From contig JAGOTH010000005.1 in assembly GCA_018061865.1 (NCBI GenBank), positions 1 through 46,398 of the forward strand: a stretch of DNA of 46,398 nt, read 5' to 3'. The position numbers and the translations under genes were made by a program. The notes beneath the pieces were generated by a model. The model was given only the letters and a program-made list of their open reading frames with translations, had not been told where the DNA came from and did not search any database. Source of the stretch: Minisyncoccota bacterium. Its GTDB lineage: Bacteria > Patescibacteriota > Minisyncoccia > Phycocordibacterales > UBA9973. Shown piece after piece: positions 4,483 to 44,141 of the stretch (position 1 is its first letter; every line of letters starts with the position of its first letter).

Positions 4483-5306
4483 GAGGAAAAATCCCCAACC
4501 CTCACCCTCTTTATTCTTAAGGCTAAAGCAGGACATCCGAGAGACTTCCCTATTTTTTCAGCAAGCACTCGCATATACGCACCACTCTCACAGGAAACTT
4601 TTATTGAAATAACTAAAACATTTTCATTACCTGAAATATTTTTTAGATTATTCCATCCAGAAATTATTTCTTCTTGTCGGAAATCTCCTTTTACTTTTTT
4701 TATTCTTTCAACAGACTCGTCCGCCACTTCCATCACTTTCATCATTCTAGTGTTTTGCAAAATACTAGAATGAATTATGACGGTATGTTTTGGGATATTA
4801 GTATTAAAAATTTTTCCTAAACGAGCCAGAGAAAAAAGTGGTTTTCCATCAACGGGCTTTGAAGAATACTTCGGATACTCTTCCTCAAATTCCCCTTCAC
4901 AATCCTTTAATGTCTCTTGTATTTTTCTTAAAAAACTCCCGTCTAATAATTTTTCATGGTCTGGCCCCGCTTCTTGCGGGGAGACCCAAGGACCTGAAAA
5001 ATTATTAGATAAAAAAGAAAGATTTGAATCTTGTATTACACCAAGAATATCTCCCGTATCACTCGATACACCCAAAAGCACTTCTACCTCGTATTCCTTT
5101 GAAAGCTTTAAATATTCCTCTTTCTTGTGAACAGACTCTCCAGTCAGAATAATCAAAAGCCCTTCTGCCATTGGATCAAGCCGTCCTGCATAAGTTGCCT
5201 TTTCTTCTTTTGGAATTACCCCTTCTTCTTTTGCACGATTAATACACTCAAGCGGAGTTTCCCCTTCTTTTTTGTATAAAACAATTACTTTTTCCCTTTC
5301 TTCCAT
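4479..5306 (-). CDS. truB: tRNA pseudouridine(55) synthase TruB
   Basis: TruB makes pseudouridine 55 in the T loop of tRNAs. The catalytic motif YAGRLDPMAEG is present, with Asp44 as the expected nucleophile, and the length (275 aa) fits short bacterial TruB. The start overlaps the end of trmD by 22 bp; a TTG about eight codons downstream is an alternative start. Two palindromic elements lie in frame inside the gene. A GC-rich hairpin at 4958-4986 encodes part of a WVSPQEAGPDH stretch, and a 28-bp palindrome at 4744-4771 encodes about ILQNTRM. Both fall outside the recognisable catalytic motif. TruB-TrmD adjacency suggests a tRNA-modification operon. Confidence 0.93.
   Translation of the reverse strand: MEEREKVIVLYKKEGETPLECINRAKEEGVIPKEEKATYAGRLDPMAEGLLIILTGESVHKKEEYLKLSKEYEVEVLLGVSSDTGDILGVIQDSNLSFLSNNFSGPWVSPQEAGPDHEKLLDGSFLRKIQETLKDCEGEFEEEYPKYSSKPVDGKPLFSLARLGKIFNTNIPKHTVIIHSSILQNTRMMKVMEVADESVERIKKVKGDFRQEEIISGWNNLKNISGNENVLVISIKVSCESGAYMRVLAEKIGKSLGCPALALRIKRVRVGDFSS
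4744..4771. repeat. 28-bp palindromic repeat inside truB (ATTCTAGT family)
   Basis: The sequence starts ATTCTAGTG, has TTTTGCAAAA at its centre and ends TACTAGAAT. It is self-complementary except for one G/T pair. A relative with three differences lies at 31467-31494 between genes. This copy is translated in frame within truB. Confidence 0.75.
4958..4986. repeat. GC-rich hairpin element inside truB
   Basis: The arms GGTCT + GCCCCGC and GCGGGG + AGACC pair around a TTCTT loop, with a one-base bulge. The element is in frame in truB and more GC-rich than the surrounding coding sequence, which suggests an inserted REP-like palindrome. Confidence 0.65.
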
Positions 5307-35609: not shown

Positions 35610-36056
35610 CTACCTCTCTTCTTGCAAAATGTACTTGTCTTCAGTCATATCTGGAGATATTCGAAGTGTAGCCGGAACCAAGAATCCACCGTTGTCTAAA
35701 GCACTGTAGGAGAAATTATCAAATTCCTCAGCCTTTGGGTCAAACACAATCTGCTCACCAACCCTTGTCCAAGAGCCACTTTTTATATATGGACCTCCCT
35801 CTTCTCCAAGGTATAACTCACTATAAGTAAACTCTCCGTTGTCATTTTCAAAATTAAAATCAGACAGAACAAGAGATACCAAAATCCCCTCACAGTCTAC
35901 GCAAGGCAGAACCCCGCTCCAGACTCGCTCATTATCCTTTAGAACCTCACGAATTTGGTATTCATTTTCTAGATCCACAGAAGAATCTTTTTTTGTAAAA
36001 AAGAAATATCCACCCAAAGCCACCGTCAATATTAAAATAATCACCACCTTTTTCAT
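35610..36056 (-). CDS. NlpE-like exported protein
   Basis: The protein resembles the N-terminal domain of the copper-responsive lipoprotein NlpE: VWSGVLPCVDCEGILVSL with the CxxC motif, then a beta-barrel-like run (GEFTYSELYLGEEGG ... SGSWTRVGEQIVF). An N-terminal hydrophobic segment (KKVVIILILTVALGGYFFF) without a lipobox Cys anchors it. I choose the ATG at 36054-36056, because TAAAAT ends exactly 6 nt before it; the ATG two codons upstream directly abuts that box. It precedes the Cys-rich DoxX gene on the same strand, consistent with a metal or redox envelope role (inference). Confidence 0.82.
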   Translation of the reverse strand: MKKVVIILILTVALGGYFFFTKKDSSVDLENEYQIREVLKDNERVWSGVLPCVDCEGILVSLVLSDFNFENDNGEFTYSELYLGEEGGPYIKSGSWTRVGEQIVFDPKAEEFDNFSYSALDNGGFLVPATLRISPDMTEDKYILQEER

Positions 36057-36062
36057 TGTCAT

Positions 36063-36068
36063 ATTTTA
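36063..36068 (-). promoter_or_regulatory. -10 box of the NlpE-like gene (leaderless type)
   Basis: TAAAAT ends 6 nt before the preferred ATG at 36054-36056. Confidence 0.45.
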
Positions 36069-36082
36069 CACCAAAAAACAAA

Positions 36083-36105
36083 AAATCCGGTAGTGAACCG
36101 GATTT
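36083..36105 (-). terminator. Terminator after 36119-36496
   Basis: Minus strand AAATCCGGT-TCAC-TACCGGATTT followed by TTTGTTTTTTG. Confidence 0.82.
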
Positions 36106-36118
36106 ATAAAAAAATAAC

Positions 36119-36496
36119 TTACACCTGATCAATGGGCTTGTTTTTTTCAGTATTAAAATTATTTTTAACAAAAATAATTACTATTGCCTGAATAAAGAAA
36201 ACTGATAAGGCTAAAATTAAACATATCACTAACGCACCCATCGTAAATTCCCCAAAATAGTCAAAAGACACTTGTAAGATTATCATTCCTGAGGCATACC
36301 CCCAGCAAAAACAAAAAAGTATTGTAAATAAACTATATTTGGTTTTAAAACGACTTTTTGCCAAGAGGGCTCCCGACACCCAAAAAAGTATGGTGGCAAG
36401 GATTGCCGCATAAAAATATATTCGGGTATTCAAGTTGTTAGAGATTCCCTGATCGATGGCATCACAAATCAGTTTGATTTGATCCATTGTATTCAT
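36119..36496 (-). CDS. Small membrane protein, 125 aa
   Basis: Three transmembrane segments are visible (IYFYAAILATILFWVSGALL, LFTILFCFCWGYASGMIIL, GALVICLILALSVFFIQAIVIIF), with a short helical N-terminus (MDQIKLICDAIDQGIS) and a Lys/Asn-rich tail. I do not recognise the family. The start is the ATG at 36494-36496. It has a perfect-consensus promoter and its own terminator, so high expression is possible. Confidence 0.7.
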   Translation of the reverse strand: MNTMDQIKLICDAIDQGISNNLNTRIYFYAAILATILFWVSGALLAKSRFKTKYSLFTILFCFCWGYASGMIILQVSFDYFGEFTMGALVICLILALSVFFIQAIVIIFVKNNFNTEKNKPIDQV

Positions 36497-36513
36497 AGTT
36501 TTCAATTTTTCTT

Positions 36514-36542
36514 ATTATACAAACAAAAAAGAGCCTTGTCAA
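36514..36542 (-). promoter_or_regulatory. Consensus promoter of 36119-36496
   Basis: Minus strand TTGACA (36542-36537), 17-bp spacer, TATAAT (36519-36514): both boxes match the consensus exactly. The TTGACA begins in the terminator loop and overlaps the first bases of its descending stem. Confidence 0.82.
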
Positions 36543-36555
36543 CGCAAGGCTCTTT
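36528..36555 (-). terminator. Terminator after the DUF1761 gene
   Basis: Minus strand AAAGAGCCTTG-CGTTGA-CAAGGCTCTTT plus Ts. The loop and descending stem contain the next gene's -35 box. Confidence 0.85.
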
Positions 36556-36574
36556 TTCTAGCTAAATTATTTAA

Positions 36575-36997
36575 TTACTGCCAAGATCCCAAAATAAAAC
36601 CAAAAACCACAAAAAGAACTAATTGGTAACCAGCTGAAATAAGAAACACCTTCCAAGCATCCTTTCTTGGACGACTGCTCCACATAGAACTTCCCGCCAC
36701 TGTTGGCATTATGAATCCAAGCCAGATCCATAGAGCATTAGTAACACCACTCGCCTCTTCCCATCCAGCTATATACTGAGCAAGAATAAATGCTTGCAAA
36801 AGAGCAAGCAAGAACTGAGTTAGATACAATTGCCACATTTTTTTCTGAATCACGGCCATTTTCTCTGGAGTCATTCCAATGTCCATTCCAGAAGCCTTTA
36901 TGAAGCAATCTCCAAACAAAAGCTTTGAGTGCCACAAGAATCCTATGAACATAGCTGCCACTCCACAAACCAACACTGCAAGATAATTTATTTCCAT
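36575..36997 (-). CDS. DUF1761 family membrane protein
   Basis: The 140-residue protein fits the DUF1761 pattern: INYLAVLVCGVAAMFIGFLWHSKLLFG at the N-terminus, a central GMTPEKMAVIQKKMW helix and WIWLGFIMPTVAGSSMWS, then the final helix AGYQLVLFVVFGFILGSW. Four transmembrane helices are likely. The family function is unknown. It is followed by a terminator that overlaps the next gene's promoter. Confidence 0.85.
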   Translation of the reverse strand: MEINYLAVLVCGVAAMFIGFLWHSKLLFGDCFIKASGMDIGMTPEKMAVIQKKMWQLYLTQFLLALLQAFILAQYIAGWEEASGVTNALWIWLGFIMPTVAGSSMWSSRPRKDAWKVFLISAGYQLVLFVVFGFILGSWQ

Positions 36998-37047
36998 AAT
37001 TTAAATTAAAAAATATTAATACTTACAAACTAATTATAACCAAAAAA

Positions 37048-37569
37048 CTAAATGGCGAAATCAAGGGTGATTGTTTGTTCTTTCTGAATGAATATTGCTT
37101 CTGCTTTTTCTCTTTCCATTCCTGGCTCAACCATTATGTAATAAGCCCCTTCTGCAATATACATTTCGAAAGTTCCGTCTGGATTTATTTCCACTCTTTC
37201 TTTTTCATCCCATTTCTCATAACTATAAGCAACTACTTCCGCCTTTCCATTCAAAACAACGTATGAAGCAACCTTTCCCTTTATTATCCCGTCCGCCATT
37301 TCTTTACCACCGACTGGAGCACCTTCAATCTGAGAACCATCAATAAACTGAATCGGGTTCGTAAAGTGCTTGCCATCTGGTGTATTACATTGCTCCGGAT
37401 AACTCTCCATCACAGGATAAAGCGCCGCACATTCCTCAAAGCTATTAACAACAGGTACCGGCTTCTCTAAGGTGCCATTTTTCATGGCATTAAATCTCCC
37501 CCAAAAAGCAAGGATAATAAGCCCAATAACTATTACAACAGAAGCTTTCATAGATAATTTGTTTTCCAT
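37048..37569 (-). CDS. Membrane-anchored protein with a FEEC/PEQC motif domain
   Basis: An N-terminal membrane anchor (ASVVIVIGLIILAFWGRF) is followed by a compact motif, SFEECAALYPVMESYPEQC then DGKHFTN, which I have seen as a recurring extracytoplasmic domain in bacteria, probably with a disulfide between the two Cys. The C-terminal half (GIIKGKVASYVVLN ... VEINPDGTFEMYIAEGAYYIMVEPG) looks like a carboxypeptidase-regulatory or transthyretin-like beta-sandwich. The ATG lies 6 nt after TAAAAT. The left 40-bp palindrome is 76 bp upstream of the start. Confidence 0.75.
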   Translation of the reverse strand: MENKLSMKASVVIVIGLIILAFWGRFNAMKNGTLEKPVPVVNSFEECAALYPVMESYPEQCNTPDGKHFTNPIQFIDGSQIEGAPVGGKEMADGIIKGKVASYVVLNGKAEVVAYSYEKWDEKERVEINPDGTFEMYIAEGAYYIMVEPGMEREKAEAIFIQKEQTITLDFAI

Positions 37570-37575
37570 TCTTTT

Positions 37576-37604
37576 ATTTTACCCCAAATAAAAATCCGCG
37601 TAAA
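37576..37604 (-). promoter_or_regulatory. Promoter of 37048-37569
   Basis: Minus strand TTTACG (37604-37599), 17-bp spacer, TAAAAT (37581-37576). The -10 box ends 6 nt before the ATG, so the transcript is probably leaderless. Confidence 0.55.
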
Positions 37605-37644
37605 ACCACATTATCTTTCCCTACTACCTATCCAGACTTTTACT

Positions 37645-37684
37645 GGTGACCAACAACTATACGATCGTATAGTTGTTGGTCACC
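37645..37684. repeat. 40-bp perfect palindrome, left copy
   Basis: The half-site is GGTGACCAACAACTATACGA followed directly by its exact complement, with no spacer. It is identical to the copy at 42139-42178. It lies 33 bp past the stop of 37718-38713 and upstream of 37569. Confidence 0.95.
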
Positions 37685-37717
37685 TCAATTTTTAATCTTT
37701 AAATCAGTATTTAATTA

Positions 37718-38713
37718 TTATTCCAAAACATATTTCTTCGTTTCTCCGTTGGAAGTTTTATATTCCAGAGTTTCATCATCCAGCCATTTTGGATAATGCC
37801 ACCAGGTTGTATCTGTAGTTTTTTCCAAATCAATCTTTTGTTTTGAAAAAATATTGTATATGGAGAAAGTAACAAAATCGCCGGCTTCCTCCCACTCTTG
37901 TTGATACTCTTCTTCAAACTCTCTAACCCCTGTCCACGGAGGTCCATCGTCATAAGTAACCCAGCCGGTGTTCACATTGAAAGCATCTTGATTCATTGTT
38001 CCAACAGGAGCTTCAAAAACACCGAAGTCACCATTTTCCATGTTTACCCTCACATAAGCCAAAACATTTGCCTGGTCAAAAAGGCTAAACCAGAAATATT
38101 TTTCGTCTTCGCTCCAACCACGAAATTCCACATCTCCGGCAATATTCGGATATTTTATAAATAAATCACTCGTTAAGTTCACCTCAACAATATTTTCTTT
38201 TGTTTCAATGTCTTTTATGTGGAGGGCATAATCCTCAGATCCAACATAACCTTGAACTAGAGAGATATATTTTTCGGAATTGGAAACGTCGAATTTATAT
38301 TGATATAAGATATTTGTTTTACCACCTTGTTTATTGGCCAGATTAACTAATAAGTACGGTTCTTTTAAAAAATGGTACACCCAAATTGAATAATCAAAAT
38401 CATCTAAAGATTTGTAGCTTTTATAATCAAAACCTTTATATTTAATAACATAAAGAGCGCATTCTTTTAATTTATATACGGATGACTGATTTGGTGGAAT
38501 ATTATCAATAACCTGGGTATTGTTATTAATAATCAAGTCTAAAGTAGCAGGAGTTGTTTCCTTATGTAAAACAACTGTCTTTTCTATACCAAAACAGCTG
38601 GTTTTATCAGAAAAAACATCCTCATCTTTTCTAAATATAAAAACTATAGATATACTTGAAATTATTATAGTTAATATTATTATTTTTTTAATGTGTGACT
38701 GTAATTGAATCAT
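37718..38713 (-). CDS. Membrane-anchored hypothetical protein, 331 aa
   Basis: I do not recognise this. An N-terminal membrane anchor (IKKIIILTIIISSISIVFIF) is followed by about 300 extracytoplasmic residues with repeated beta-rich stretches (KYISLVQGYVGSEDYALHIKDI, VEFRGWSEDEKYFWFSLFDQ), reminiscent of propeller-like blades but without a clear signature. Many aromatic residues (Trp, Tyr) are exposed, as in surface-binding proteins. Its ATG overlaps the end of the C39 peptidase gene by 26 bp, so the two are probably translated together. It is the last gene before the left palindrome. Confidence 0.8.
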   Translation of the reverse strand: MIQLQSHIKKIIILTIIISSISIVFIFRKDEDVFSDKTSCFGIEKTVVLHKETTPATLDLIINNNTQVIDNIPPNQSSVYKLKECALYVIKYKGFDYKSYKSLDDFDYSIWVYHFLKEPYLLVNLANKQGGKTNILYQYKFDVSNSEKYISLVQGYVGSEDYALHIKDIETKENIVEVNLTSDLFIKYPNIAGDVEFRGWSEDEKYFWFSLFDQANVLAYVRVNMENGDFGVFEAPVGTMNQDAFNVNTGWVTYDDGPPWTGVREFEEEYQQEWEEAGDFVTFSIYNIFSKQKIDLEKTTDTTWWHYPKWLDDETLEYKTSNGETKKYVLE

Positions 38714-41516
38714 TTTGTATGTTTATATCCATTGGCACAACCCCCGCCAAGATTGTTTTAACCGGCAATAGGCCAGGTAGAGTGTCCCAAATCGTTGTGG
38801 TTGTTTTCTGTAATTTATAATTTGCAGTACTGTATGTTCCATCATTAATATCAACTATCTGTTTATACATCTTTATTGTACCATCTGGTTTTGTTGTCCA
38901 AGTATAATAAAGGCTTCCATTCAAAGCACTGGGTATACCACCATAGGAAATATTAGAAATTAGTAAATTTATAGGCTGAACTGCGGGGATGTAATCACCT
39001 GTCAAATCAAAAGAGGTTGTATCTCCCTCTCCATCTGTCAGCTGGTAACCTGTTGGTGTCTGCTCTACCAAAACTCCAATGTCTGCGCTAGAAACAACTA
39101 ACGATTTCGACGAGGTACTAAAAGATATTTTTGCAGATGGATATGTTGGGATGGGATCTGGAGCAGGAACCTCCAAAGAAGCTTCTGTTATTCCACCTTC
39201 ATTACTATAAGTAGCCTCATAATTAATAACTTCATTTTCTTCAATCACACCACTTTCACTATCAGAGGAAAATCCACCACCCCCGTTACCTGACACGCCA
39301 ACCGTATAAGAACCAGACCCTGTTCCTAAAACATACATTTTATATTCATCTTCTGAGGCATCTGGAATATAAGCAATCTTCCATTCATGTTCAGATGGAA
39401 CACCTTCTGGGTCATCATACATTTCACTAACATAAGATGAGTTTGGTATTTCGTTATAAGAAGTATTAGAAATTGGATCATAACCCAACCGACGACCGAG
39501 AGAGTCTTCTATAACCAAGTGAGCAGGAGACGCTACATTGGCACTAAAATATGACTGAGCCAATCCTTCACCTGGTTTAAATAATCTCAGTCCATCAAAA
39601 CCATTTTCATAAGCCCTAACTTTTCCAACAGTAGAAGGCTCGTTTAATGTTTTAGTGTCATACCAAGCAGGATCTCTAACTTCATATGTATCCGCTAGCT
39701 TATTTGAAATAACAATGAAATGACTTCTCGGGGAACCACCTCTTCCCTTTGCTATTTTTGCAATTGCAGGTCTTTCTAAGTTTAAAAATTCATCAAGTAA
39801 TGGGTAGTTATTAAAACCATCGCCAGACCTTCCGTCATAAGCCAATTGGTTATCGGTATACTCAACAACCTTTAACCAGTTTATTGCTCCTCCCGGATAA
39901 TATCCATTATTATTCTGGAGCCAAGCATTCACCGTTCCTGGAGTAACATCTCCTCCTCCAACTTCTGTTATCCCATAATATCTGGCAACCATAACTCCAG
40001 AAGTCATGGCGCAACCACAGGCGGCGATTGTCGCCCCACATCCTGTGTTTGCTGGACCAAAGGCATAATCTTGAATAGCCCAAGCAAGAGTTGCTGCCTC
40101 ATCCGGATACGGCGATTGATTTTGCGTATAATGTGGAACTTGATGAACAACAAAATCAATATTTCCGTCTGTCCCATATTCAACCCAATCAGATTCATTT
40201 CCAAACTCATCCACAATTCTAGCTCTCCAGTGGTAACTGCCATCGATCAAACCAGAGACACCTTTTTCTACGGCAATACCGTCAGAAGCAAACTCTGTTT
40301 CCTGGCTAACGATTCCATCAAATGGAACATCGAAACTTTTTATTTCTAACTGCATTTTTGCCTGACCAAATGGAGAGGTTAATGTTCCCTTAAAAGTAAC
40401 GCTGTCACTCATGTTTGTTCCTGTTTCAGCAATTGAGGCGACTCCGTCATATTTGAATTGACCAAGACTGCCAATCTCGACTTCTGTTGCTTCGAATGGA
40501 TTAGCTAGTAACCAAGGGTCAAAATCTTCATCTGCCGTTTCAAGAATGTCCCCTTCGCCAGATGTATTATAAAAATAATGATATGGACCAGTTGGACTTC
40601 CCCACCAATTGTTTTCAAAATTTAAAGTAGGCTCCTCTTCATCACTATTTGTCCAGGCTGCAGCAGAGTTACCATAAATCGCATTATTATTAATATTTCC
40701 ATAAGAATTTCTTTCCAAAATTAAACCATAATTATTATTTGTAATTAAAGAATTAGACAAATAAATTTCTTCATCTTCAGATTCGGGCAAACGACCAATT
40801 GGTTCAATAAAAATATTTTTAATCCCCGCCCCAGAAAAGTTTTGGAAAGTGCTGTTCGTTATATTTACATCAGTTTCTCCTGTAAAAGCAAAACCTATAT
40901 CTCCATCAGAAAAAAATAAACCCTCGGCGGTTATGTTTGCGTTTCCTGTTCCGTATAGAGCCTTGTCACTAGTGTTTTCGACGGAAACATTGTTTAGTAA
41001 ATGATCTCCTTGATAAAAATCAATTCCATTTTGGCAAGAAGAAATTTCTGAATTAGATAGATCCAATGAAACACCTTCTGAACTTAAGCAAGTGCTACCA
41101 TATTTAATTTTTATATTATTCAAAATAGAACCAGAACTTGTACTCCAAAAATCTAAACCAGTCCAATCCCCCTCTAAGGCAGAACTGGAAGCACCGTCAG
41201 CATTTGTGTCTCCACCGATAGAGTCATCTTTTATGGAGGTGAAGCTTATAGGATTTTCGGTTGTACCATTTGCAACCAAAGCACCTTTAATTTTTATTGA
41301 TTTACCCGACTTAGCCTTTACCACAACCCCTGGCTCTATGGTTAGAGTTACCCCAGAATTTACACTTGGGCTTATTTCTAAAATATAAGGACTACCGACG
41401 AGAGTCCACGTTGTGTCAGTTGTTACACTAGAAGAAATATTTGTAGAAGCCAAAACATTATTATTAAAAAGAAAAACCGAAGCTAAAAATACAAGTAAAA
41501 ATATTTTTAATCTCAT
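38688..41516 (-). CDS. Secreted beta-helix protein with C39-like cysteine peptidase domain
   Basis: A 942-residue exported protein with a signal peptide (MRLKIFLLVFLASVFLFNNNVLA). Residues ~30-340 form a right-handed beta-helix of the TLTIEPGVVVKAKSGKSI type, with many Asn/Ser turns. An Ig or fibronectin-like segment follows (SYHWRARIVDEFGNESDW). Residues ~465-650 are a peptidase C39-like fold: Cys500 in ACGCAMTSGVMVARYYG, His599 in SHFIVIS and Asp615 in VRDPAW make a plausible catalytic triad. The C-terminal ~270 residues are beta-rich, with a Gly-rich break (GNGGGGFSSDSESG). It probably cleaves or binds surface peptides outside the cell; the target is unknown. TATAAT ends 9 nt before the ATG. 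Confidence 0.85.
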   Translation of the reverse strand: MRLKIFLLVFLASVFLFNNNVLASTNISSSVTTDTTWTLVGSPYILEISPSVNSGVTLTIEPGVVVKAKSGKSIKIKGALVANGTTENPISFTSIKDDSIGGDTNADGASSSALEGDWTGLDFWSTSSGSILNNIKIKYGSTCLSSEGVSLDLSNSEISSCQNGIDFYQGDHLLNNVSVENTSDKALYGTGNANITAEGLFFSDGDIGFAFTGETDVNITNSTFQNFSGAGIKNIFIEPIGRLPESEDEEIYLSNSLITNNNYGLILERNSYGNINNNAIYGNSAAAWTNSDEEEPTLNFENNWWGSPTGPYHYFYNTSGEGDILETADEDFDPWLLANPFEATEVEIGSLGQFKYDGVASIAETGTNMSDSVTFKGTLTSPFGQAKMQLEIKSFDVPFDGIVSQETEFASDGIAVEKGVSGLIDGSYHWRARIVDEFGNESDWVEYGTDGNIDFVVHQVPHYTQNQSPYPDEAATLAWAIQDYAFGPANTGCGATIAACGCAMTSGVMVARYYGITEVGGGDVTPGTVNAWLQNNNGYYPGGAINWLKVVEYTDNQLAYDGRSGDGFNNYPLLDEFLNLERPAIAKIAKGRGGSPRSHFIVISNKLADTYEVRDPAWYDTKTLNEPSTVGKVRAYENGFDGLRLFKPGEGLAQSYFSANVASPAHLVIEDSLGRRLGYDPISNTSYNEIPNSSYVSEMYDDPEGVPSEHEWKIAYIPDASEDEYKMYVLGTGSGSYTVGVSGNGGGGFSSDSESGVIEENEVINYEATYSNEGGITEASLEVPAPDPIPTYPSAKISFSTSSKSLVVSSADIGVLVEQTPTGYQLTDGEGDTTSFDLTGDYIPAVQPINLLISNISYGGIPSALNGSLYYTWTTKPDGTIKMYKQIVDINDGTYSTANYKLQKTTTTIWDTLPGLLPVKTILAGVVPMDINIQNDSITVTH

Positions 41517-41543
41517 ATACTTAAAATTATAATTCTTTTTAAA

Positions 41544-41557
41544 AGGGTGGTTACCCT
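41544..41557 (-). terminator. Possible weak terminator after the PaaX/Cas2-like gene
   Basis: Minus strand AGGGT-AACC-ACCCT followed by TTTAAAAAG. The stem is only 5 bp and the T-run is short, so it is more likely leaky than a full stop between the first two genes of the block. Confidence 0.35.
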
Positions 41558-41586
41558 CTTTAAAAAACCTTGTGGAAAACTGAATT

Positions 41587-42120
41587 CTAAAGTTTGAAAT
41601 GCTTCCTTATCCTCTTGTCTCCAGAAATTTTCTCCGCCAGGATATACTGCATATTTTTCCCAAAATTGTGCTCCACCCTTAGAATTTCAATGTACTTCTC
41701 ACAAGGATACGGAGACACCCAGACACTCCTCTGCATCTGAATAAATCCAAGACTCTTTAGCTCATCCCGAAAAATATCCCTCTTATTCCTTTGGTTCTCT
41801 CTGACATCAAAAGAAACAATCCTCCACTTCCCATCCCATTTGGGTCTTTTTATTAAAGTAGGATTTACCTTCATCAAAACAATTTCGCCCTTTGGAGTCA
41901 ATTCAAACTTAGCTCCTTTATTTTTTATGTATCCGGCGTCCACTAAAGATTTAAACTTTTTATTTACCTTATATCTAGATTCTTTTTTATTTAAAACTTT
42001 TTTAATAAACGGGATTACCTGAACAATATTCGGAGCAGCTGAAATAACAAAGATTCCACCTGTTATCGCAACAAGAATTAAAATATTTTTTGTTAATACC
42101 CCCAGTCGAATATTTTTCAT
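41587..42120 (-). CDS. PaaX/Cas2-like protein with N-terminal membrane segment
   Basis: From the ATG at 42118-42120 (177 aa) there is a hydrophobic segment (KNILILVAITGGIFVISAA), then a winged-helix-like part (RYKVNKKFKSLVDAGYIK ... FELTPKGEIVLM), then a ferredoxin-fold domain of the PaaX C-terminal/Cas2 type (KWRIVSFDVRENQRNKRD, LGFIQMQRSVWVSPYPCE, and YILAEKISGDKRIRKHF). The VSFDV strand keeps the Asp found in Cas2. No CRISPR array or cas1 is present, so a regulator or DNA-binding role is more likely. AAGGGGAG upstream is one of the few Shine-Dalgarno-like sequences here. The right palindrome ends 18 bp before the ATG. Confidence 0.82.
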   Translation of the reverse strand: MKNIRLGVLTKNILILVAITGGIFVISAAPNIVQVIPFIKKVLNKKESRYKVNKKFKSLVDAGYIKNKGAKFELTPKGEIVLMKVNPTLIKRPKWDGKWRIVSFDVRENQRNKRDIFRDELKSLGFIQMQRSVWVSPYPCEKYIEILRVEHNFGKNMQYILAEKISGDKRIRKHFKL

Positions 42121-42138
42121 ATAACTCCCCTTTACCGC

Positions 42139-42178
42139 GGTGACCAACAACTATACGATCGTATAGTTGTTGGTCACC
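42139..42178. repeat. 40-bp perfect palindrome, right copy
   Basis: Identical to 37645-37684: two exact complementary 20-base halves, GGTGACCAACAACTATACGA and its complement, without a loop. It lies between the msrB stop and the PaaX/Cas2-like start and would be in that gene's 5' region. Confidence 0.95.
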
Positions 42179-42217
42179 AAGAATTTCTATATTTATAATA
42201 CTAATAAATATTGTATC

Positions 42218-42622
42218 TTAAATAATCTCTCTTTGTAATTTCAAACTCGCCGAATTGGTGCAAAATCTTTTTCCTGTTCCCTGTTTTCCATTTTCCATTG
42301 TTCCAGTTGGGCCGTCGTCGAAAACATGACCGAGGTGTGCCCCGCAGTTTGCGCACACCACTTCTGTTCTAACCATTCCATGACTTTCGTCAGTTATATT
42401 TTTTGTTGATCCGGGAATTGCATCAGAGAAACTTGGCCAACCAGTCCCTGAATCAAACTTGGTATCTGAGGAAAAGAGCGGAACATCACAAACTTTGCAA
42501 TGATACATTCCATTATCATGAACATTCCAGTATTCATTTTGGAAAGGAGCTTCTGTCCCCTTCTCTTGAGTTACTTTGTATTCTTCTTCTGTGAGTTTTT
42601 GTTTTAGTTCATCTTTATTCAT
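42218..42622 (-). CDS. msrB: Peptide-methionine (R)-S-oxide reductase MsrB
   Basis: MsrB repairs R-form methionine sulfoxide in proteins. The 134-residue product has the zinc ligands CKVC and CANC, the substrate motif GTGWPSF, and the catalytic Cys in RFCTNSASL (Cys, not selenocysteine). I use the ATG at 42620-42622 (MNKDELKQK), with TATAAT 6 nt upstream. A longer in-frame version would start inside the promoter. The size is typical of stand-alone MsrB. Confidence 0.95.
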
Positions 42623-42628
42623 AAAAAT

Positions 42629-42634
42629 ATTATA
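42629..42634 (-). promoter_or_regulatory. -10 box of msrB (leaderless type)
   Basis: TATAAT ends 6 nt before the msrB ATG; no clear -35 box. Confidence 0.5.
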
Positions 42635-42643
42635 CCCCAAAAC

Positions 42644-42675
42644 AAAACAACCCCGACTTTCGTCGGAGTTGTTTT
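42644..42675 (-). terminator. Terminator of the RRM gene
   Basis: Minus strand AAAACAACTCCGAC-GAAA-GTCGGGGTTGTTTT, a 14-bp stem with one wobble, and a GNRA-type loop. Confidence 0.85.
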
Positions 42676-42682
42676 AGATAGA

Positions 42683-42943
42683 TTATCTTCGGTCTTCCAT
42701 TGGGCGGGCGATGTTCACGTTAAGTGTTCGTCCGTCAAAATCTTTACCATTCATTCCATCAATCGCTTTGTTTGCTTCTTCTTCTGAAGACATTTCAACA
42801 AAACCGAAACCTCGTGGTCGGCCTGTCATTTTGTCTGTGATGATCTTTGCAGATGCAACACTTCCAAAAGCTGAAAAAGCGTTTGTTAGAGAAGACTCGT
42901 CTGTTTTGTAAGAAAGATTTCCTACGTATAGTTTTACTGCCAT
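42683..42943 (-). CDS. RRM-domain RNA-binding protein
   Basis: This is a single RNA recognition motif in 86 residues, starting MAVKLYVGNLS with the RNP2 motif LYVGNL and continuing to RNP1 RGFGFVEM. The tail (ARPMEDRR) is short and lacks the Gly-rich extension of cold-regulated cyanobacterial Rbps. It probably binds mRNA as a chaperone. An extended -10 promoter at 43043-43048 gives a leader of about 90 nt, long for this window, which may carry regulation. Confidence 0.93.
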   Translation of the reverse strand: MAVKLYVGNLSYKTDESSLTNAFSAFGSVASAKIITDKMTGRPRGFGFVEMSSEEEANKAIDGMNGKDFDGRTLNVNIARPMEDRR

Positions 42944-43042
42944 TTGAAACAAGTGAGCTAACTAATAATTGTAATCACCTCACATGTTCCCCGACAAAGA
43001 GACCGCCTTGACTAAGAAACTAGAACTGTGACTAACAGAAGC

Positions 43043-43048
43043 ATTATA
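43043..43048 (-). promoter_or_regulatory. Extended -10 promoter of the RRM gene
   Basis: Minus strand TGC-TATAAT. No convincing -35 box. Predicted leader about 90 nt. Confidence 0.5.
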
Positions 43049-43107
43049 GCACGAATAGATTAGAAAGTATAGGCTAGGCAAACACCTTGTCGAATAAAGG
43101 CTTTCTG

Positions 43108-43195
43108 CGGAGGATGAGGGATTCGCCTCTCGTCGTTGCTACGACTCGAAACCTTCGTCAGCCAAGCTGACTGCGGCCCGCGGTTCGAATCTTCT
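43108..43195. other. Hairpin-rich, tRNA-3'-end-like stretch
   Basis: On the minus strand the left end reads CGAATCCCTCATCCTCCGCA, like the T arm and acceptor 3' strand of a serine tRNA, and the other end carries GATTCGAACC. Between them are two clean hairpins, GTCGT-TGCT-ACGAC (43132-43145) and GTCAGC-CAA-GCTGAC (43157-43171). A full tRNA does not fold: D and anticodon arms are missing. It may be a repeat derived from a tRNA end or an old integration site. From 42944 to 43565 there is no gene I can support. Confidence 0.4.
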
Positions 43196-43244
43196 TTTTC
43201 TTTCAATATTTTTAAAAATCAAATAACGAAAGTTATCAATTTTG

Positions 43245-43540
43245 GCGGTATTCATTGTACAAAATTCGAACTTATTTTGAAAGTAATCCTGATGATACCG
43301 AATACTAGCGTTCCCCGCGCGCTACGCGCCTCTGTGCGAAGCACAGAGCTTCTGCAAAGCAGAAGTGCGGGAAAACGCTAAATGCAAATGCGGACTCGGT
43401 TTTGCGAAGCAATTTTGCGGGAGGAGGATTCGCAAAAACGAGACTAAGTTTTTTGAAATTCGGCGGGATTGGGTTTCTGCCCCGCAGGAGGGTGCGGGAG
43501 GAATGCGGGGCGGGCATTTCGGAATTTTGGCGGGCGGGCT
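43245..43540 (+). repeat. 296-bp inverted repeat, left arm
   Basis: This arm matches the reverse complement of 46003-46298 as far as I can compare by eye, over the same length. It is GC-rich and packed with small hairpins, including CTCTGTGC-GAA-GCACAGAG and CTTCTGC-AAA-GCAGAAG. Open frames within it (for example 43305-43517 minus and its mirror 46026-46238 plus) are low-complexity by-products of the palindromes, not believable genes. Confidence 0.93.
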
Positions 43541-43565
43541 TAAAAAGAAAAACTTTTGAATCAGG

Positions 43566-44141
43566 TTATTTTGTTTCTTTCAGGAAAAGTGAGAACGAAG
43601 TAAAAATGTCTAGCATATTATCATAAAGTTTTTTCTTTTTCGAAAAATCCATTTTTTGTCTTTTTGTAAAGACGGAATCATTATGTCCAAAATCAAGACG
43701 AGCAACCCCATCCTCAAATTGGGTAACTTGAAGCAATAGTGACTTTCTTTGTTTATTAAACCTAGATAATAGAGATTGTATTAAAATAAATTTCTTTTGA
43801 TTGGCTTTCCTCCAATTTTTGTATTGTAAAGTCTCACCATTTTTTATTGACTCATTTATATAATCTATATATTCATTATTATTCATTTTACTAACAGATT
43901 TTTTACCAATTTTAGCCAAGTATGTTTTAAGAAATTTATTTTCATTCAAAAATCTTGATTTGGGTCTTTTACCTAATTCAAAAATAACACATGGAACAAT
44001 CAGACTTTCTTTATCTATAATTCCACCTGAAACCTGCACGTCTAATTTCAAATTTTCTAAAAATAAGGCAGTGTTTAGAAGTCCAGCATGTTTGACTTTA
44101 AATTTTTTCTCTAATTGTTTAATTTTTAAATTTACTTTCAT
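43566..44141 (-). CDS. Hypothetical protein inside the inverted-repeat module, 191 aa
   Basis: I do not recognise this. It is a strongly basic, Lys-rich protein (KVNLKIKQLEKKFKVKH at the start, KRQKMDFSKKKKLYDNM near the end) without signal peptide or membrane segment, so nucleic-acid or ribosome binding is possible. The middle has a SGGIIDKESLIVPCVIFELGKRPKSRF stretch that looks like a beta-rich core. It starts 22 bp after the phosphoesterase stop on the same strand, so the two probably form an operon. Its 3' end is 26 bp from the left repeat arm. Confidence 0.75.
   Translation of the reverse strand: MKVNLKIKQLEKKFKVKHAGLLNTALFLENLKLDVQVSGGIIDKESLIVPCVIFELGKRPKSRFLNENKFLKTYLAKIGKKSVSKMNNNEYIDYINESIKNGETLQYKNWRKANQKKFILIQSLLSRFNKQRKSLLLQVTQFEDGVARLDFGHNDSVFTKRQKMDFSKKKKLYDNMLDIFTSFSLFLKETK

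Follow-up and report, generated by a model that had tools for sequence, protein, structure and literature searches.

Genes for a small protein, predicted to combine a winged helix with a Cas2-like (PaaX_M) fold, run through Paceibacteria (Patescibacteria), and most of them are bracketed by two copies of their own palindrome. Of 87 related genes fetched, 77% carry two copies of the same palindromic motif, one just before the start codon and one just after the stop, against 2.4% of 467 control genes. Whole units and lone palindromes come and go between genes, which looks like an undescribed kind of repeat-spreading, or at least self-regulating, genetic element.

A three-gene cassette between identical palindromes

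The starting point was a stretch of 46,398 nucleotides (contig JAGOTH010000005.1, assembly GCA_018061865.1, from a Minisyncoccota bacterium), hereafter the window. An earlier note had reported two identical 40-bp palindromes enclosing three same-strand genes led by a PaaX/Cas2-like protein, and this observation proved correct. Both copies are exactly GGTGACCAACAACTATACGATCGTATAGTTGTTGGTCACC, perfect and without a spacer, and they enclose exactly three minus-strand genes. The half-site has four matches in the window with up to 3 mismatches, compared to a mean of 0.00 in shuffled windows, and chance was rejected. As single-stranded DNA, the 40-mer folds into an 18-bp stem with a GATC loop (-18.4 kcal/mol, z -9.4). 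The features of the locus are as follows:

42218..42613, minus strand: msrB, left neighbour of the insertion (SelR, E 3.4e-48)
42139..42178: palindrome copy 2 (upstream copy), 40 bp, perfect; ends 18 bp before the ATG of the PaaX-like gene and lies 39 bp beyond the msrB stop
42150..42177, minus strand: possible promoter of the PaaX-like gene (GTGACC-16-TATAGT), inside palindrome copy 2
41587..42120, minus strand: 177-aa predicted winged-helix and Cas2-fold (PaaX_M) protein, the presumed palindrome-binding protein of the unit
38688..41516, minus strand: passenger gene for a 942-aa secreted-type protein; the beta-helix and C39-like reading is that of the earlier note, and there is no Pfam match
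37718..38713, minus strand: passenger gene for a 331-aa membrane-anchored protein, overlapping the previous gene
37645..37684: palindrome copy 1 (far copy), identical 40 bp, 33 bp beyond the stop of the third gene
36575..36997, minus strand: DUF1761 gene, directly downstream of msrB in relatives that lack the cassette

The PaaX-like gene is best read from the ATG at 42120; the TTG start at 42150 lies inside the palindrome. Its product matches PaaX_M (PF20803, E 1.9e-21; 76.4 bits vs. a gathering cut-off of 24). The AF2 model (pLDDT 83) shows a winged helix (residues 1-89) followed by a Cas2-like ferredoxin fold (96-177). The best whole-length fold match was E. coli PaaX (8a39), while the C-terminal half matched Cas2 proteins; a structural family missing from the VIA-align list was not taken as excluded. 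The membrane segment proposed in the earlier note is modelled as helices of the winged-helix domain, although residues 27-30 are of low confidence and a membrane role is therefore not excluded. The note had also stated that neither copy has a T-run; copy 1 does have a short T stretch (TCAATTTTTA) on the plus strand, but the genes lie on the minus strand.

The note had counted two copies, but the genome (G000) has a third, slightly changed one, GGTGACCAACAACGGTACGATCGTACAGTTGTTGGTCACC, on another contig (C6:18661-18700). It lies between convergent genes for a uracil-DNA-glycosylase-like and an NADH-dehydrogenase-like protein (names from our reading of the translations), with no PaaX-like gene beside it. 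One pair has changed on both sides (A-T to G-C) and one is mismatched. Its flanks share nothing with the other copies, so the repeated unit is the palindrome itself. Outside the window, only stretches around matches were examined. The only other PaaX_M gene of this genome lies between grpE and dnaK and has no palindrome. The window also contains a further spacer-less, near-perfect palindrome within an ORF (4742-4773, TCATTCTAGTGTTTTGCAAAATACTAGAATGA).

A search of Rfam gave nothing at 36000-44000 and PHROGs gave nothing; PADLOC gave only weak Cas2-type matches, which we read as the shared fold. The exact 22-bp core was found in none of 84,980 GTDB genomes, and no relatives were confirmed in IMG/VR viral contigs.

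Palindromes and PaaX-like genes across Paceibacteria

Relatives of the protein (P0001) occur in 142 of 145 genomes of the family, with up to 19 per genome, which makes this one of the larger repeated gene families in these very reduced genomes. GTDB contigs place them in Candidatus Nomurabacteria, Zambryskibacteria, Taylorbacteria, Kaiserbacteria and other Paceibacteria. In 20-kb stretches around 88 homologues, long spacer-less palindromes of different sequence lie right next to the gene. To quantify this, we compared the 150 bp before each gene with the 150 bp after it, counting matching motifs with a score >=16 (77% of 87 genes vs. 2.4% of 467 control ORFs; Fisher p 9e-56). A second set from GTDB contigs, partly overlapping in genomes and drawn from Nomura-, Zambryski-, Taylor-, Kaiser-, Vogel-, Taga-, Moranii-, Staskawicz- and Yonathbacteria, gave 59/73. 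The upstream copy usually lies 0-30 bp before the start codon and the downstream copy 0-50 bp after the stop, and the copies are mostly in direct register (50 direct, 17 inverted). Ordinary terminator hairpins are common in these genomes and had to be filtered out; long non-terminator hairpins were nonetheless enriched beside the gene (27/84 vs. 44/848, p 1e-12), and terminators were rejected as an explanation for most copies. Two other ORFs among the controls (L124 1227-2500 and L105 13067-13764; L numbers denote the stretches examined) are also bracketed by long matching repeats (TTGACAAATATACTCAATATGCTATAAT; an 82-nt ATACGAATAT repeat), unrelated to the PaaX-like family as far as seen.

A control exists within the family. 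The PaaX-like genes between grpE and dnaK gave 0/19, and in a 103-protein tree the palindrome-bracketed genes (73 of 80 rows) separate from this clade. Seven members of the palindrome clade lack a detectable pair, including the window gene on its own immediate downstream side. The unbracketed gene is a conserved single-copy PaaX-like regulator in most genomes of the family (G000:C18, L014 1471-2013, and L130-L150), and is a candidate heat-shock regulator of these bacteria. The palindrome core (GCATATGC, CGGCCG, CGACCG, GCTATAGC, CAGGGG and others) follows the protein tree, with 19 changes compared to a shuffled mean of 45.4 (0 of 200 shuffles as low). This is what recognition of the palindrome by the protein would produce; binding itself is inferred.

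Each motif that was searched is private to one or two genomes. The window type (26-bp core) was found in 1 of 147 genomes and the type of genome G057 in 1 of 145, while the type shared by G044 and G045 was found in those two of 24, plus one weak hit that is itself PaaX-linked. The earlier note had named in advance two findings that would count against a link, namely palindromes scattered widely without this protein family, or the family routinely without palindromes; neither was observed, and the link is strongly confirmed.

In the GCATATGC clade, 24 of 26 upstream copies run directly into a -10 hexamer (TATAAT type), compared to 2 of 27 downstream copies read along the gene. In 10 of 27 downstream copies of this clade, a -10 box points back into the gene, suggestive of an antisense promoter or an inverted end repeat (L082, L084, L086, L089, L093, L095, L097, L105, L115 and L123). 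In the window, the GTGACC-16-TATAGT pair is as a consensus match no better than chance (19 such matches found, 18.3 expected), and so rests on the relatives.

Whole units are present or absent between orthologous genes. A unit lies between ychF and the next gene in G068 and G080, but only 5 bp separate these genes in G083; similar filled and empty pairs were seen for units in G074 (compared to G077 and G086), G115, G086 and G087. Between host PaaX and grpE, G065 has a palindrome-gene-palindrome unit, G057 a solo palindrome, G066 another, and G062, G043 and G058 nothing; a unit of the same kind lies beside host PaaX in G052. In one conserved intergenic site G045 carries one PaaX-like type, G066 and G046 another, and G044 and G049 unrelated genes. 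Short open frames of PaaX-like genes with the Cas2-like half only (L077 9884-10147 and L071 9825-10154; 87 and 109 aa) may be decaying units, the one in L071 still being bracketed by palindromes.

The note had also proposed comparing loci with and without the cassette beside msrB. In G002, G005, G004, G011 and G023, msrB is followed directly, about 35-90 bp on, by the DUF1761 gene, whereas in the window genome the palindrome-bounded cassette and one further gene stand between them. In most relatives the unit holds a single gene. A pair homologous to the two extra genes of the window exists in G019 with no PaaX-like gene or palindrome within 1.5 kb, and homologues of the 942-aa protein mostly occur without a PaaX-like gene in the loci examined, so that an association as cargo was not upheld. 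The two genes are best seen as passengers, or as neighbours caught between a unit and a solo copy. In G024 the nearest relative of the window protein stands next to another large secreted-type protein, divergently, beside an atpC-like gene.

Solo palindromes of the same sequence as a genome's unit were also found. G045 has its unit plus four identical 34-bp solos, G044 has two, G057 one plus a local cluster, and G000 one; the G045 and G044 motifs are confined to the genomes that hold the unit. Of nine solos read in detail, eight lie between convergent genes (one of these sites being shared by G044 and G045) and one directly after a stop codon. The downstream neighbour of the units was convergent in 29/63 cases, compared to a 12% background. 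A solo after recG in G045 is absent in G043, while G044 has an ordinary terminator hairpin there. In G057, six copies of one palindrome within 4 kb alternate with small secreted-protein genes and one PaaX-like unit (L087 6361-10355, contig C12), which looks like a growing array. In G044 (L165 1911-1998, contig C5), two solos of two different PaaX-like types lie side by side after a ribosomal protein L27-like gene.

Interpretation

The reading we favour, with moderate confidence, is that the window holds one member of a family of small palindrome-bracketed units (about 0.6-0.75 kb in all), each a gene for a winged-helix and Cas2-fold protein with a unit-specific palindrome immediately before and after it, forming a self-regulated, REP/RAYT-like mobile palindrome system, here with two passenger genes. 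The sequences themselves establish the bracketing, the split from the unbracketed grpE-dnaK clade, the parallel change of palindrome core and protein, the -10 box in the upstream copy in one large clade, the presence or absence of units between orthologous neighbours, and the solo copies, mostly at 3′ ends between convergent genes. It is by inference only that the protein binds its palindrome through the winged helix and so represses its own promoter (neither binding nor repression was assayed, and the promoter overlap of the upstream copy is suggestive only), and that, perhaps with host enzymes, it acts on the palindrome, possibly extruded as a hairpin, so that palindromes and units are copied or moved into intergenic sites.

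Some of the data speak against strong mobility. No near-identical units were seen within one genome and many orthologous units are syntenic, so movement is slow or mostly vertical. Solo copies are few, unlike the hundreds of REPs. We searched for exact junctions and target-site duplications, but the flanks of most filled and empty pairs are too diverged and the best case, the solo after recG, shows no obvious duplication, which leaves this point undecided. No catalytic activity can be read from the sequence. Invariant residues of the Cas2-like half include an Asp at the end of its first strand (D105) and W95-DGKWR100, but invariance does not prove nuclease activity, since PaaX-type regulators have a similar motif. 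The stronger proposal, that the Cas2-fold protein is itself the enzyme of a new class of mobile palindromes, recognising its own palindrome, probably as a hairpin, and integrating or copying palindromes and units into 3′ intergenic sites, is not excluded but is tentative, and we consider it less likely than not. This would be an analogue of REP-RAYT that arose independently from the fold of the CRISPR adaptation protein.

The interpretation given in the earlier note was partly supported. It had offered an operator pair or, alternatively, an exchangeable cassette ended by palindromes as in RAYT-REP systems, and each holds in part. The operator reading fits the upstream copy, but does not explain the downstream copies or the solos, most of which sit at the 3′ ends of genes. 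The cassette reading is supported by the filled and empty sites; however, the general unit is palindrome-single gene-palindrome.

The strongest alternative is a non-mobile autoregulator, in which the upstream palindrome would be the operator, the downstream copy a second operator (for looping, or blocking of antisense or convergent transcription) and the solos a small regulon, with units spreading only by ordinary horizontal transfer and gene loss. The PaaX/PadR/MarR-like fold is that of transcriptional regulators, so regulation alone would explain the upstream copy; the promoter overlap, the inward-facing -10 boxes, which hint at regulated antisense promoters, and the mostly syntenic orthologues are also consistent with this view. 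However, solos lie mostly between convergent genes or right after stop codons rather than at promoters, they are 34-40-bp exact or near-exact copies, longer and more exact than operators need, and the motifs are private to one or two genomes. We consider this alternative possible but unlikely. Less likely still is a 3′-end element, with the palindromes acting as protein-dependent terminators or road-blocks at the ends of transcription units and the PaaX-like protein as the factor that binds them. The position of the solos, the convergent downstream neighbours and the terminator of G044 at the recG site are in its favour, and palindromes may be kept for a 3′-end function, but the upstream copy overlaps the gene's own promoter, units and solos are absent from most comparable 3′ ends, and sequences are private per genome. 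That the palindromes are ends or MITE-like leftovers of an unrelated transposon, or ordinary terminators that happen to lie nearby, is very unlikely, despite the abundance of long hairpin terminators, given the bracketing, the co-variation, the clean negative sister clade and the lack of terminator features in most copies.

Cas2 is a partner of the Cas1 integrase and has a fold shared with regulators and RNases. A stand-alone Cas2-fold protein tied to its own private, rapidly changing palindrome in the large majority of a family would offer a new model for how short palindromic repeats spread, and for what Cas2-like proteins could do before or outside CRISPR. It also provides a natural series of dozens of protein/palindrome pairs with readable specificity. 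In the open-access literature, which includes papers on PaaX itself, we found none joining PaaX with Cas2, Patescibacteria or palindromes, although an earlier description in preprints or subscription papers is not excluded.

Comparison with known systems

The PaaX repressor of phenylacetate catabolism has the same winged helix followed by a Cas2-like middle domain and is the best whole-length structural match. The window protein (177 aa), however, has no PaaX C-terminal domain and scores far below the NCBIfam PaaX equivalog cut-off (TIGR02277; 26.6 vs. 264.55 bits), and its family differs in its bracketing palindromes, its solo copies and the up to 19 homologues per genome. The C-terminal half superposes on Cas2 (Z about 8-9) and shares with the Cas2/VapD ferredoxin-fold nucleases an invariant Asp at the end of the first strand (D105). 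It is fused to a winged helix, however, and falls just below the Cas2 cut-offs (21.8 vs. 23.8 and 23.7 vs. 24.5); no dedicated scan for a cas1 neighbour or CRISPR array was run.

IS200/IS605 elements are likewise single-gene units of about 0.7 kb with palindromic sequences at both ends, but the Y1 HUH transposase TnpA is not present here and no recent multi-copy bursts were seen. In REP/RAYT (REP-associated tyrosine transposase) systems, a single small gene is bracketed by two copies of its own palindrome, palindrome and protein diverge together, and further palindromes occupy intergenic sites of the same genome (PMC2817692). The units share these features, with the second copy lying after two passenger genes in the window, and with additional copies in G000, G044, G045 and G057, far fewer than classical REPs. 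They differ in having a Cas2/PaaX fold in place of the Y1 HUH transposase with its HUH motif and catalytic tyrosine (an HUH motif occurs in only 3 of 70 aligned proteins, and Pfam hits are to PaaX_M and Cas2), in palindromes that are nearly perfect with a tiny loop or none, and in copies that lie mostly in direct register, whereas REPs flank RAYT genes in inverted orientation.
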